Assembly: GCA_007121535.1 (NCBI GenBank)
Contig: SKKK01000297.1
Span: 1 to 49,642, forward strand
Reading direction: 5' to 3'
Length of the DNA: 49,642 bases
Origin: Planctomycetaceae bacterium
GTDB lineage: Bacteria; Planctomycetota; Planctomycetia; Pirellulales; Pirellulaceae
This document shows positions 2,223 to 6,684 of the stretch, in pieces. Under the pieces are notes generated by a model that saw nothing but the letters and a program-made list of their open reading frames with translations, was not told where the DNA came from and ran no database searches. The position numbers and the translations under genes were made by a program. Within the stretch, counting starts at the first letter, position 1. Each line of letters opens with the position of its first letter.

Positions 2223-3101
2223 TTAGTCGATGATCTTATTGATCGAGTATTCGACGATCCCCCGGGCGCCGGCGGCTTTTAGTTGGGGGATGATGGTTCG
2301 GACGAACGTTTCGTCGACGATCGTGTGCACGTCCACCCAGGCGGGATCGCTGAGCGCCGAGACGGTTGGATTCTGCAACGCAGGCAGGATCTGCAGGATT
2401 TGGTTCAGCCGATCCTGAGGAACGTTCATCATCAGCCCGACCTTGCCCTCGGCATTCAGGCACGACTGCAGCATCAGCGCGATATTGTCCAATTTCGCCC
2501 GCTTCCAATCGTCCTGGTACGCTGAGGGATTGGCGATGAAACGCGTCGTGCTCTGCAACACCTCGGCCACGATCCGCAGGTTGTTGGCTCGCAACGAGCT
2601 GCCCGTTTCGGTCACCTCGACGATCGCATCGGCCAGCTTTGGCGGCTTGACTTCGGTCGCCCCCCACGAGAATTCCACCTGCGCCTGGACTTGGTGCTTT
2701 TCGAGGAAAGCATGGGTCAGCCCGACCGCTTCGGTGGCGATGCGTTTGCCTTGCAGATCCTGGACGGTTCGGATCGGCGAGTCTTCGGGCACGCACAGCA
2801 CCCAGCGAACCGGGCGACGGCTGACTTTGGAGAACACCAACTCGCAGATCTCGACCACCCGGGCGTTCGACTCCAGCACCCAATCGTGGCCTGTGATCCC
2901 GGCGTCCAAGATGCCCTGTTCGACGTACCGAGCCATCTCCTGGGCACGGATCAGCAGGCATTCGATTTCCAGGTCGTCGATCGACGGGTAGTACGACCGG
3001 GACGAGAAACTGATGCGATAACCGGCGCGCCGGAACAGTTGTGCCGTGGCTTCTTGCAGGCTGCCGGCGGGGATTCCCAACTTCAAGAGTCTTTCGGACA
3101 T
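2223..3101 (-). CDS. hisG: ATP phosphoribosyltransferase, long form
   Basis: The 292-residue product catalyses the first step of histidine synthesis, condensing ATP and PRPP. Family hallmarks are the N-terminal [24 protein letters not shown] near residue 90, a central GKRIATE, and [15 protein letters not shown] near 160. The length and the C-terminal [18 protein letters not shown] segment mark the HisG_L form, which carries a regulatory ACT/PII-like domain used for histidine feedback and needs no HisZ. ATG at 3101. The gene lies 118 bp downstream of hisI, with repeat B1 between them, so the two may be co-transcribed. Confidence 0.95.
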
Positions 3102-3148: not shown

Positions 3149-3229
3149 GTAGGTTGGGACTCTGTCCCGACCGGGTCGGGTCGGAGACCCAACCTACTTC
3201 GGTGGCGGCCGTGGCCGCGTTAGGATTTC
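3149..3229. repeat. Dispersed hairpin repeat family B, copy 1
   Basis: A 49-bp core (3149-3197) is identical to 25473-25521. It folds into a long hairpin: a 10-bp outer stem GTAGGTTGGG/CCCAACCTAC and an inner CCCGAC/GTCGGG. A second shared part, GCGGCCG...GGCCGCG followed by TTAGGATTTC, runs to about 3229 and covers the stop codon and last two sense codons of hisI. The core separates hisI from hisG. Confidence 0.9.
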
Positions 3230-3606
3230 TTGTAAACCTGAGTGGGATCGAAAACCCGTTGGCCTTCGACTTGGACGGCTCGGGTTTGCGGATCGATACG
3301 GCGGAAAAAGCAACTGCGATAGCCTTCGTGGCAAGCCGCTCCGCCGATCTGATCGACTTTCACCAGCAGCGTGTCGGCGTCACAATCAAAGTACAGGCTC
3401 TTCAGATGCTGGACGTTTCCGCTTTCTTCGCCCTTGCGCCACAGCTTTTCGCGGCTGCGGCTCCAGTAACAGACCCGCCCCGTTTGAAGCGTTTCCTCAT
3501 AGGCCTGCTGATTCATGTAGGCCAGCATCAACACGTCGCCGGTCTGATGATCCTGGGCGATGACGGGAATCAAGGGGTGTTTGTTGAAGTCGGGTTCGTT
3601 CACCAT
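3220..3606 (-). CDS. hisI: Phosphoribosyl-AMP cyclohydrolase
   Basis: This is the third step of histidine synthesis, opening the purine ring of phosphoribosyl-AMP. The 128-residue protein carries the metal-site signatures [14 protein letters not shown] and the cysteine pair in ACHEGYRSC, plus the N-terminal [14 protein letters not shown]. It is monofunctional; the HisE activity is encoded separately at 14.6 kb. The start is uncertain: ATG 3606 or GTG 3603 sit very close to GGAGG (3608-3612), and a TTG at 3633 is also in frame. The ends of other HisI proteins favour 3606. The last two codons and the stop lie inside repeat B1. Confidence 0.93.
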
Positions 3607-3652
3607 TCCTCCGTTTTGATTGTTCTCGTGCAAGGATGGGTATCTCAGTTGA

Positions 3653-4027
3653 TCAGTTGATCATTCGGAAGGTGTAAGGGTAACGGTACCGGTTGCCGCG
3701 ATTCGCCTCGATCCCGCCGATGACGCCGTAGACGATTCCCGCGATCAAGATCGCAATCGCCACCGGCGCCAGCAGGCAACTGGCTGCGGTGACCAGGCTG
3801 GCGACCAAGCAGGAGAGTTGAAAATTCAAAGCTTCTTTGGCCTGGTCGTCGATGAACGGGGAACTCTCGCGTTTGACCAGCCAGATGATCAGGGGCCCGA
3901 GCGCGCTCAAGCCGACCAGGATCGACAGATGCGCCAAGGTGGCCCACAGCCGATCGTCGTCGGTGATGTCGGTGCGCACCGGAGGCAGATCATTCTTGTC
4001 CGTTGGTTTTTCGGGCATCGAGCACAT
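3653..4027 (-). CDS. DUF4870 small membrane protein
   Basis: A 124-residue protein. A short polar N-terminus is followed by [16 protein letters not shown] and a hydrophobic segment, then the family-typical [13 protein letters not shown], then two more hydrophobic segments (about residues 75-105), ending [13 protein letters not shown]. This matches the DUF4870 (Tic20-like) pattern of three membrane segments; its function is unknown. ATG 4027 has GAGG nine bases upstream; ATG 4018 is an alternative. The gene ends 46 bp upstream of hisI, on the same strand, so co-transcription is possible but no functional link is known. Confidence 0.85.
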
Positions 4028-4277: not shown

Positions 4278-4691
4278 TCAACGGTCATCCAGATACGAAT
4301 AAGATCGACGCCGTCTTTGGTACTGTGTCCGTCGGGGGCGAGTGCGGGGATGAGTGCGATGATGAGGGTGGTAATGTCCACCTTCAACAAACCAATAGCC
4401 TGCCAGCAGCCGGTAAAAACACAGGATAATGAAGGCACCGGCTGTACCGATTCCGAACCCGACGGGACTTATAGGGGTAACGGCATGCCCCTCAAAGAAG
4501 AAGGAAACGATCCCACAGCCGATCACCGTGCCGACGACTCCCATCGCCATCGTTGCGATGGCACCACCCGGGTCGGGGCCGGGCATGATGGCCTTGGCCA
4601 ACAATCCGACAACGGTTCCGAACCCGATCCAGACGAAAAACAGGTTCGCGGCGTGCTGCAGGTTTTCCATCACTTGCACATCAAAATTCAC
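4278..4691 (-). CDS. GlsB/YeaQ/YmgE-type membrane protein with His/Arg-rich tail
   Basis: A 137-residue protein from GTG 4691, chosen because GGAG lies nine bases upstream (4701-4704). Residues about 15-105 hold three hydrophobic segments with the transglycosylase-associated family pattern: GLLAKAIMPGPDPGG, then VVGTVIGCGIVSFFF, then GFGIGTAGAFIILCFYRLLAG. Family members are small stress-related inner-membrane proteins of unknown mechanism. They normally stop at about this point. Here roughly 33 extra residues rich in His and Arg follow, which may be a real tail or a frameshift. A candidate ncRNA with its terminator lies upstream. Confidence 0.75.
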   Translation of the reverse strand: MNFDVQVMENLQHAANLFFVWIGFGTVVGLLAKAIMPGPDPGGAIATMAMGVVGTVIGCGIVSFFFEGHAVTPISPVGFGIGTAGAFIILCFYRLLAGYWFVEGGHYHPHHRTHPRTRPRRTQYQRRRRSYSYLDDR

Positions 4692-4795
4692 GACAGTTTG
4701 CTCCAACAAAGGGGTTGGGGGTACTTCCCATCGGTATCGGCAACTGTGCCCGCTGGAGTTTGACGATAATTGCGATCGTTCCCCAGTCCGCGCAT

Positions 4796-4860
4796 AAAAA
4801 AAGCTCCCGGCAGCGACGGTATCCCAGGGGGGCAGAGGATTCCGCGTTTGCTCCGGGAGC
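4796..4860 (-). terminator. Intrinsic terminator, minus strand
   Basis: Read on the minus strand, GCTCCCGG (4853-4860) pairs with CCGGGAGC (4803-4810) across a 42-nt loop and is followed at once by seven U residues (4796-4802). This fits a Rho-independent terminator, although the loop is long. It ends the candidate ncRNA and lies about 100 bp upstream of the GlsB-like start codon, so it could also be a leader attenuator for that gene. Confidence 0.65.
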
Positions 4861-5118
4861 GATTGGACGGTTTACCACCGATGCATCCTGCGGGGGTGGC
4901 AGATGGTCCTGGTTCCGCAAGCCGTCCGGCGGGGCGAAGCTTTCAGTCGGCGTCCATGCCAACATTCGTCTTCGGTGTCCGCAGAGACACGCACGGGTAC
5001 GTGCTCCAGATGCTGGACTCCATCAGGCGACCGCAAAAAATGGGACGGACACCACACGGGAAACTGGGGGGTTCATTGGACTCTCGCCAGTTCTGTTGCG
5101 AGTTGCTCGTCTCATTGA
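4796..5118 (-). ncRNA. Candidate non-coding RNA of about 320 nt, family not recognised
   Basis: The interval between the Gfo/Idh/MocA stop (5224) and the GlsB-like gene has no convincing ORF, yet it is bounded by a good promoter (5125-5153) and an intrinsic terminator (4796-4860) on the same strand. Local hairpins are visible, for example GTGTC-TCTGCG-GACAC and AACTGG...CCAGTT. I looked for RNase P, tmRNA and 6S landmarks and found none: there is no GAGGAAAGUCC and no tag peptide frame. It could instead be a long 5' leader of the downstream gene. Confidence 0.4.
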
Positions 5119-5124
5119 GGCAGG

Positions 5125-5153
5125 AAGATATGCCAATGCTCGGCTCTCGTCAA
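5125..5153 (-). promoter_or_regulatory. Sigma-70-like promoter, minus strand
   Basis: On the minus strand, TTGACG (5148-5153) and TATCTT (5125-5130) are separated by exactly 17 bp. Upstream are two A5 tracts within CTGCGAAAAAGCTCGCAG, which could act as an UP-like element. The predicted start of transcription is near 5118. The match to consensus is good but unproven in a planctomycete. Confidence 0.5.
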
Positions 5154-5223
5154 GAGCTTTTTCTGCGAGCTTTTTCGCAGCATGCAAGCACTGCTATCAT
5201 CATGTTGCCCAGCTCGCGGGTGC

Positions 5224-6684
5224 TTACAGTTTCCAGCCGCTTCGATAGTCGCAGGTCAACAGTGCATCGGCAGCCGTCGAATTGGTGATCCGCATCGCCA
5301 CCGGATCGTACTCCAGCGTCTGATCGATCTGCGTGGCGACGTTGCCCAGCATCAGCAGTTCGTTCAGTGCGGATGCATAATCGAAATCCGACCACGGCGA
5401 TGGGCCTCCCCGACAGGCCAGCAGCCAGTCCTGTTCGTGACCTCGTGAGCGGTCGACCTGTTGCGGTTGGCGGCGATCGATGTCCTGGAAGTCTGCGGCC
5501 GGGATCAGGCGGAACGTTGCATTGTGACCGGTGGAATGGATCAGCCCGCGAGTACCCACGATTGCGGCGCCGGCGAACTTCAGGCCCTCGACCGCTTCCG
5601 GGTCGCCCGGGATACCGGGGTCGGTGATCAGGGCTTCGATCTTCTCATGAGCCTGGGGAACCGGTCCTTTGTACCACTGGAAGACGATCGGCGGCAGCTC
5701 GCCGCGCGGCGGAATCTCCCACTGGACGTGCTCCCATCGCGGGAAGGACAGAGGATTGATACCCGAGGAAGTGGCCGAGACACGAAGCAACGGTCGTGGT
5801 GATTCACCTGCGGGTTCTGACCAAAGCTGTTGAACCTTCAACGCCATGAAGGCCAAATTTGCGGTGTGCGACGCCCAGTTGCCAAGCTGGCAGGTTCCGA
5901 AATCCCGCCATTGATTGCGACGCGTCCAGTCCGGATGATAGGGCCGATCGGCTGCGGGACCCAGCCACAGGTCCCAATCCAAGGTTGCGGGCTTGGGCGG
6001 CTGGCCCGCGGGAGCCTGCGGACGATCCGCGCCGCGGCCCGTATTCCATATGTGAACTTCGCGGATCTCGCCGATCGTCCCGTTGCGGATCAGTTCCAAG
6101 GCGCGTCGAAACGGTCCGGCGGCCGTGCCTTGGTTGCCCATCGACGTGGCGACGCGATACTTGCGAGCCAATTCGCGGAGGGCTCGCGATTCATGCACGG
6201 TGCGAGTCAGCGGTTTCTCGCAGAACACGTGCATGGCGGCGCGGATCGCGGCGGCGGAAGCCACGGCGTGCGTGTGATCCGGTGTGGACACCACCACCCC
6301 GTCCATACGCCCTTGCCAAGCGTCCAGCATTTGGCGAAAGTCCTGAAACTGCTGCGGCGGTTGCTCGGTCAACTGGCGATAACGCCGGGCAGCTTGCCGC
6401 TCCCAATCATGAGGCGATTGGGCCAGTCGATCGGCCCCCTGTTGCCATCGCCGCTGAGCGGCCGCCATTTTTTCGGCGTCCACATCGCACAACGCAACGA
6501 CCTGCTCCAACCGCGGCAGCGTGTCGACGAACCATGTGCCTCGGCCTCCGCAGCCGATCAACCCCAGATTCAACCGCTCGTTGGCCTGGTACGTGCGTGC
6601 CGACGCGCTATTGCTCAAAATCACCCAGCCAGCGGCACCCGCGGCTGCCAGGAATTCACGACGATTCGAAGTTACGGCCGTCAT
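5224..6684 (-). CDS. Tat-exported Gfo/Idh/MocA family oxidoreductase
   Basis: A 486-residue protein that starts with a twin-arginine signal (SNRREFLAAAGAAG, then a hydrophobic stretch and SASA at about 26-29). A Rossmann motif follows, GLIGCGGRGTWF (about 41-52), and the family's catalytic-region EKP occurs in CEKPLTRTV. This is typical of the large planctomycetal set of exported NAD(P)-dependent dehydrogenases thought to act on sugars or inositols; the substrate is unknown. The C-terminal segment ends with DYASALNELLMLGNVATQI and a SAADALL-like stretch common in this subgroup. ATG at 6684. Confidence 0.9.
   Translation of the reverse strand: MTAVTSNRREFLAAAGAAGWVILSNSASARTYQANERLNLGLIGCGGRGTWFVDTLPRLEQVVALCDVDAEKMAAAQRRWQQGADRLAQSPHDWERQAARRYRQLTEQPPQQFQDFRQMLDAWQGRMDGVVVSTPDHTHAVASAAAIRAAMHVFCEKPLTRTVHESRALRELARKYRVATSMGNQGTAAGPFRRALELIRNGTIGEIREVHIWNTGRGADRPQAPAGQPPKPATLDWDLWLGPAADRPYHPDWTRRNQWRDFGTCQLGNWASHTANLAFMALKVQQLWSEPAGESPRPLLRVSATSSGINPLSFPRWEHVQWEIPPRGELPPIVFQWYKGPVPQAHEKIEALITDPGIPGDPEAVEGLKFAGAAIVGTRGLIHSTGHNATFRLIPAADFQDIDRRQPQQVDRSRGHEQDWLLACRGGPSPWSDFDYASALNELLMLGNVATQIDQTLEYDPVAMRITNSTAADALLTCDYRSGWKL

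Follow-up and report, generated by a model that had tools for sequence, protein, structure and literature searches.

We identified a conserved, structured and free-standing small RNA (sRNA) gene at 5153-4796 on the minus strand of the window (i.e., the whole 49,642-nucleotide stretch of planctomycete DNA analyzed here), which is not represented in the copy of Rfam searched. The evidence for such a gene is firm, and its transcription is inferred. We propose, with a probability of about 0.6, that it encodes a trans-acting sRNA that binds CsrA and perhaps also pairs with other RNAs via a C-rich loop; transcription, CsrA binding, titration and pairing are all inferences. An initial annotation had described this interval as a candidate noncoding RNA or, alternatively, a regulatory leader. 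Our analysis confirmed this observation and indicated that it understated the case. The RNA is a candidate for a new family, for which a covariance model that works, a clear promoter and sites open to testing are at hand. If such a conserved RNA carries CsrA-type sites, it would offer a handle on post-transcriptional control in planctomycetes.

Promoter, extent and terminator of the RNA gene

The promoter consists of a -35 element, TTGACG (5153-5148, minus strand), with A5 tracts directly upstream, a 17-nt spacer and a -10 element, TATCTT (5130-5125), followed by a G+C-rich discriminator (CCTGCC in the window). Taken alone, this match was not beyond chance (1 match in the region, where shuffled versions averaged 0.6), and the reality of the gene was settled by conservation. 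We used a pool of 109 loci, comprising the window, 32 relatives and 80 loci from named genomes minus 4 duplicates. The pattern TTGA[CT]...TA[TC]NNT was found upstream of the conserved core in 89 of these loci, window included (six of the 109 had short upstream sequence), with spacers of 17 nt in 66 loci and 18 nt in 23. In control stretches, the same pattern was missing from all 94 taken further upstream and occurred once each among 104 downstream stretches and 109 from the opposite strand. The six bases 3' of the -10 element had a mean G+C content of 94% over the 89 loci and read CCCGCC in 29 of them. Since close relatives were kept in the pool, counts over the 109 loci are not independent.

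The transcript start was inferred to lie 7 nt past the -10 element, giving an RNA of ~320 nt (4796-5117); no RNA data support this position. Over the 89 loci with such a promoter, the inferred transcripts had a median length of 310 nt (range 131-451 nt). At the 3' end, GCTCCCGG (4860-4853) pairs with CCGGGAGC (4810-4803) and is followed by a T7 run (4802-4796), so that the promoter and the hairpin terminator with U7 that the initial annotation had pointed out both held. The two arms of the terminator hairpin (4803-4860) are separated by an insert of 42 nt that forms an inner hairpin, which is why a simple terminator scan did not contain it. Immediately 5' of this hairpin is a conserved element, GUCCAAUC (4861-4868), that was predicted to be single-stranded. 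We also observed that TGCGC directly followed the T-run (4790-4794) in 77 of 109 loci, compared to 6 of 1355 runs of five or more T elsewhere in the loci. This conserved motif should fall beyond the end of the RNA and remains unexplained.

Distribution across planctomycetes

The genome that contains the window is 9.3 Mb in size and consists of 706 contigs. A DNA search with positions 4700-5230 found a single match in each of 33 out of 40 genomes, counting the own genome, and the absence of conservation in relatives, which would have refuted the initial annotation, was not seen. The alignment was 93% identical over query positions 28-531 in genome G001 and 80% in G002, where it spanned positions 69-448 of 531, i.e., from the promoter to just beyond the T-run. 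In more distant genomes, only the 3'-terminal ~70-105 nt could be aligned.

A covariance model of the 3' core (R1, based on the 33 sequences of alignment A1) detected the RNA in 111 of the 119 family genomes, including 86 of the 87 that were of high quality (completeness ≥90%, contamination ≤5%). The corresponding numbers were 156 of 297 for the class and 37 of 392 for a phylum sample. Three weak matches among these 37, all from outside the class (L193-L195), were rejected, as they were plain terminators that lacked the C-rich loop. A second model, R2, was used solely for finding members; no more than 5 pairs were retained in it, since part of its alignment, A2, had the outer stem out of register. 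With R2, a match was obtained in 168 of the 297 genomes of the class: 78 belonged to the order (82 genomes), 73 to family f18 (83 genomes), 15 to f118 (76 genomes) and 2 to f121 (7 genomes), and the 49 genomes of f19, f119 and f120 together had no match. The RNA was nearly always present in a single copy per genome; only 4 of the 168 genomes had two to four matches. Of the loci fetched from f18 and f118, 15 of 20 and 2 of 9, respectively, had the promoter pattern within 380 nt, and some of the distances were implausibly close.

A pattern scan of named genomes gave at least 119 stretches, 80 of which were made into loci. The titles of these 80 were planctomycete in 78 cases and just "bacterium" in the other two. 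Two of the 78 named Kuenenia; they look mislabelled, since in the promoter region they are very similar to L069 and L117, which are titled Planctomycetaceae. Among the named strains with a match to the core pattern were Blastopirellula marina DSM 3645, Rhodopirellula solitaria CA85, Stieleria sedimenti ICT_E10.1 and Botrimarina colliarenosi Pla108. None of the viral contigs contained the exact core pattern.

Secondary structure and covariation

The central domain was analyzed in an alignment of 36 sequences, consisting of the window and 35 of the 89 transcripts with a promoter that matched a landmark pattern; the other 53 were excluded. Three consensus helices were recognized: P1 (GUCYGCA/UGCGGAC), P2 (CGAAGCG/CGCUUCG) and P3, located within P2. 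In the window, P1 is a hairpin with strands GUCC-A-GCA and UGCGGAC and a variable apical stem (4975-5020), P2 is a helix of CGAAG and CUUCG (4935-4974) and P3 is a hairpin with strands GUUGGC and GCCGAC around the loop AUGGAC (4946-4963), a putative CsrA/RsmE-type site of the ANGGAN hexaloop kind for which there are no binding data. P2 and P3 were supported by both covariation and the single-sequence fold. P1 rests on homology and covariation in the 36 sequences and was missing from the minimum-energy fold of the window, in which three small hairpins were drawn instead. The stability of this fold was modest (z = -2.09; 3 of 100 shuffles were equally good).

We found that 81.5% of the cells in P1-P3 had standard pairs vs. 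31-41% when the helices were slid, and that both-sided changes occurred in 17 of the 23 pairs. Of 500 shuffles, not one was as high as the observed value on four measures, and a single one was on a fifth. This test is biased in favor of the structure, which had been derived from the very sequences tested. Similarly, the ANGGA loop is invariant in the set of 36 by construction, since the selecting pattern required it; the changes in the stems are not subject to this. In the 3' hairpin, 4 of the 13 consensus pairs showed two-sided changes (33 sequences). Compensatory changes in relatives, which the initial annotation had suggested looking for, are therefore present in both the central domain and the terminator. 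Together with promoter conservation and near-universal presence in the family, they support its description of a free-standing noncoding RNA, although no RNA data are available.

CsrA-type hexaloops

The 89 transcripts, which had not been selected for GGA, contained 63 strict ANGGAN hexaloops (stem of at least 3 Watson-Crick pairs) spread over 50 transcripts, whereas shuffled sequences had a mean of 1.9 and a maximum of 8 (200 runs). Antisense strands, upstream flanks and downstream flanks had 0, 1 and 6, respectively, and twelve other loop patterns occurred 0-5 times each. With relaxed rules (stem of at least 2 pairs, G-U counted), 113 hexaloops were found in 75 of 89 transcripts vs. 13.7 in shuffles. 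Thus, 39 transcripts had no strict hexaloop and 14 not even a relaxed one; two or more strict hexaloops were present in 13. It has been reported that the high-affinity site of RsmE is a hexaloop, ANGGAX, placed directly on a stem, and that RsmE stem-loops have a C-G closing pair (PMC4005645); the closing pair was C-G in 58 of our 63 hexaloops.

In the window fold, 2 of the 12 GGA were fully exposed, one in P3 and the other in a small hairpin, GCAGGAUGC (4883-4891), each with an unpaired probability of at least 0.98. In each of the other ten, both G were mostly paired. Strict hexaloops were found in 5 of the 20 loci fetched from f18 (0.35 in shuffles, maximum 2) and in none of the 9 from f118, and relaxed hexaloops in 11 of 20 (2.7 in shuffles) and 2 of 9 (1.0 in shuffles), respectively. 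Binding of CsrA to these hexaloops is likely, but it is inferred in the absence of RNA or binding data.

CsrA itself was found in all 297 class genomes (1 to 17 matches each), with 12 CsrA-domain matches in the genome of the window (G000; L276-L287). Because every class genome searched had CsrA, its co-occurrence with the RNA is uninformative. Hfq was detected in none of 40 relatives (own genome included), whereas five control genomes did give matches.

C-rich terminator loop

The apical loop of the inner terminator helix is a near-invariant C-rich sequence, GCCCCCCU (4826-4833), in which six C were unpaired with a probability of 0.82-0.98 in the window fold, and which is a candidate pairing seed. 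GCCCCCC at the tip of this helix was invariant in the 33 A1 sequences. It was also kept in all 80 named loci, by construction, since the search pattern contained it. In the loci fetched from f18 and f118 with the A1-trained model, the C-rich loop was largely kept and the stems differed. As this loop outlasts the hexaloops in both families, the C-rich hairpin may be the older element, and CsrA binding may be neither the ancestral nor the only function of the RNA.

Potential targets were searched in ten genomes with the exact 9-nt complement of the loop, CAGGGGGGC, located 2-14 nt before an ATG. There were 91 matches vs. 41 with the reversed pattern. The 91 matches corresponded to 84 distinct sites, 80 of which were examined (the last four listed for G030 were left out). 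An open frame of at least 60 codons followed 40 of the 80, with a stop close upstream in 11 of the 40. An all-against-all protein comparison (E ≤ 1e-4) detected no pair and hence no recurring ORF family.

Proposed function and alternative explanations

According to our proposal, the sRNA would have a housekeeping-type promoter of its own, with a G+C-rich discriminator, and would end at an intrinsic terminator of its own. Hairpins in the 5' and central regions would display ANGGAN hexaloops, to which CsrA dimers may bind. The sRNA could then draw CsrA off mRNAs (titration) or, alternatively, hold CsrA while the loop GCCCCCCU of the terminator pairs with other RNAs. The modeled shape of the RNA suggests CsrA binding in organisms where Hfq was not found. 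One could speculate further that it is a hub of Hfq-free riboregulation in planctomycetes, with one CsrA paralogue serving as a general matchmaker on ANGGA hairpins and GCCCCCCU pairing with many mRNAs; this is a conjecture that we regard as improbable.

Several other explanations were considered. The initial annotation had left room for a regulatory leader of the downstream small membrane-protein gene, and the next downstream ORF in the window (4278-4709) does share the strand of the RNA. However, the unit is closed by an intrinsic terminator, 61 of 105 loci had their first downstream ORF on the other strand, and the downstream genes did not belong to a family shared by most loci: the largest family of neighbors was seen in 19 loci, at mixed positions. 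Although a simple longest-ORF rule was used to predict neighbor ORFs and some are spurious, this variability in family and strand led us to reject the leader, and a cis-acting leader or riboswitch is very unlikely. Further downstream in the window, also on the minus strand, are genes for a DUF4870 protein (3653-4027), phosphoribosyl-AMP cyclohydrolase (3220-3633) and HisG (2223-3101), and a tandem array (2066-2204) with 3.9 copies of a 36-base unit (97% matches) lies shortly beyond the HisG stop codon. A second explanation is a divergent 6S RNA, tmRNA or other known housekeeping RNA missed by Rfam, in line with the usually single copy per genome and the near-universal presence of the RNA in the family. 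Yet Rfam at gathering scores had no match anywhere in the window, a search of 4600-5300 with E up to 10, which included the covariance-model search proposed in the initial annotation, gave nothing, and 14 homologous loci had no match at gathering scores. When eight loci (two shared with the 14) were searched with E up to 1, none reached a family gathering score and three rows were returned (mir-995, Flavo-1 and CcsR1; E 0.23-0.89). The impression that no known family could be recognized was accordingly upheld at Rfam cut-offs. In the case of 6S RNA (RF00013), the own genome had a match over the cut-off elsewhere (G000:C332:1266-1486, 48.1 bits), which excluded this candidate here; tmRNA and other RNAs were tested by these scans only. 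We consider a housekeeping RNA hardly credible. As for 6S RNA in the 40 relatives, any match was found in 9 and a match over the cut-off in 3, so the Rfam model may give low scores to the 6S RNAs of this group.

A different division of labor within the RNA deserves more weight. It may be a base-pairing sRNA that acts chiefly through its C-rich terminator loop, an anti-Shine-Dalgarno-like seed, while the GGA hairpins merely recruit CsrA as a stabilizer or matchmaker or are a lineage decoration. The invariance of GCCCCCC in A1, the persistence of the loop in f18 and f118 loci where GGA hairpins thin out, and the failure to find Hfq in the 40 relatives would fit this explanation, as would the CsrA-promoted pairing of SR1 with ahrC described for Bacillus subtilis (PMC8501984). 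On the other hand, the 80 CAGGGGGGC sites in ten genomes revealed no recurring ORF family, and covarying GGA hairpins would require another explanation. This possibility is real but doubtful, and we retain the CsrA-binding sRNA as the preferred reading.

Comparison with known RNAs

Among the matches listed, a search of the open-access literature revealed no description of this RNA and none of any Csr-type sRNA in planctomycetes; most subscription papers were outside this search. The RNA was also not described in the available parts of PMC2864571, PMC4005645, PMC7366521, PMC5673643 and PMC9029176. A 2010 list of motifs includes Rhodopirellula-1 from Proteobacteria and Planctomycetes (PMC2864571). 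Since its table row there has no Rfam accession, the Rfam scans may not cover it.

The CcsR ("cuckoo") RNAs (RF02791) resemble the RNA in having a hairpin with a C-rich loop. However, the loop is GCCCCCCU here and CCUCCUCCC in CcsR, and the CcsR model has 83 positions, much below the median length of our inferred transcripts. RF02791 matched the core of one of the eight loci (L109) with 19.6 bits and an E value of 0.89, compared to a gathering score of 65.3.

CsrB and RsmZ sequester CsrA, and CsrB has many accessible GGA sites. The proposed CsrA-binding sRNA is like CsrB/CsrC and RsmX/Y/Z in that GGA is located in hairpin loops, with an ANGGAN hexaloop and C-G closure, and in that a free-standing gene ends in an intrinsic terminator in a genome with csrA. 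It differs in that strong sites usually number one or two rather than many, in its near-invariant C-rich terminator loop and in the lack of a detectable Hfq in relatives. Many accessible GGA sites per RNA were not seen (2 of 12 fully exposed in the window fold; two or more strict hexaloops in 13 of 89 transcripts). The GacA/UvrY box, TGTAAG-N-CTTACA, was not found within 250 nt upstream of the promoter in any of 89 loci, and the Csr/Rsm models of Rfam had no match in the window, the 14 loci or the eight loci at E up to 1. In the absence of a many-site array, a GacA box and an Rfam match, we did not file the RNA as a Csr/Rsm member; by analogy, it may nevertheless act like one. With regard to SR1 of B. 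subtilis, neither an Rfam match nor a target was found here, and any resemblance would lie in the mode of action, in which CsrA binding would be combined with base pairing.
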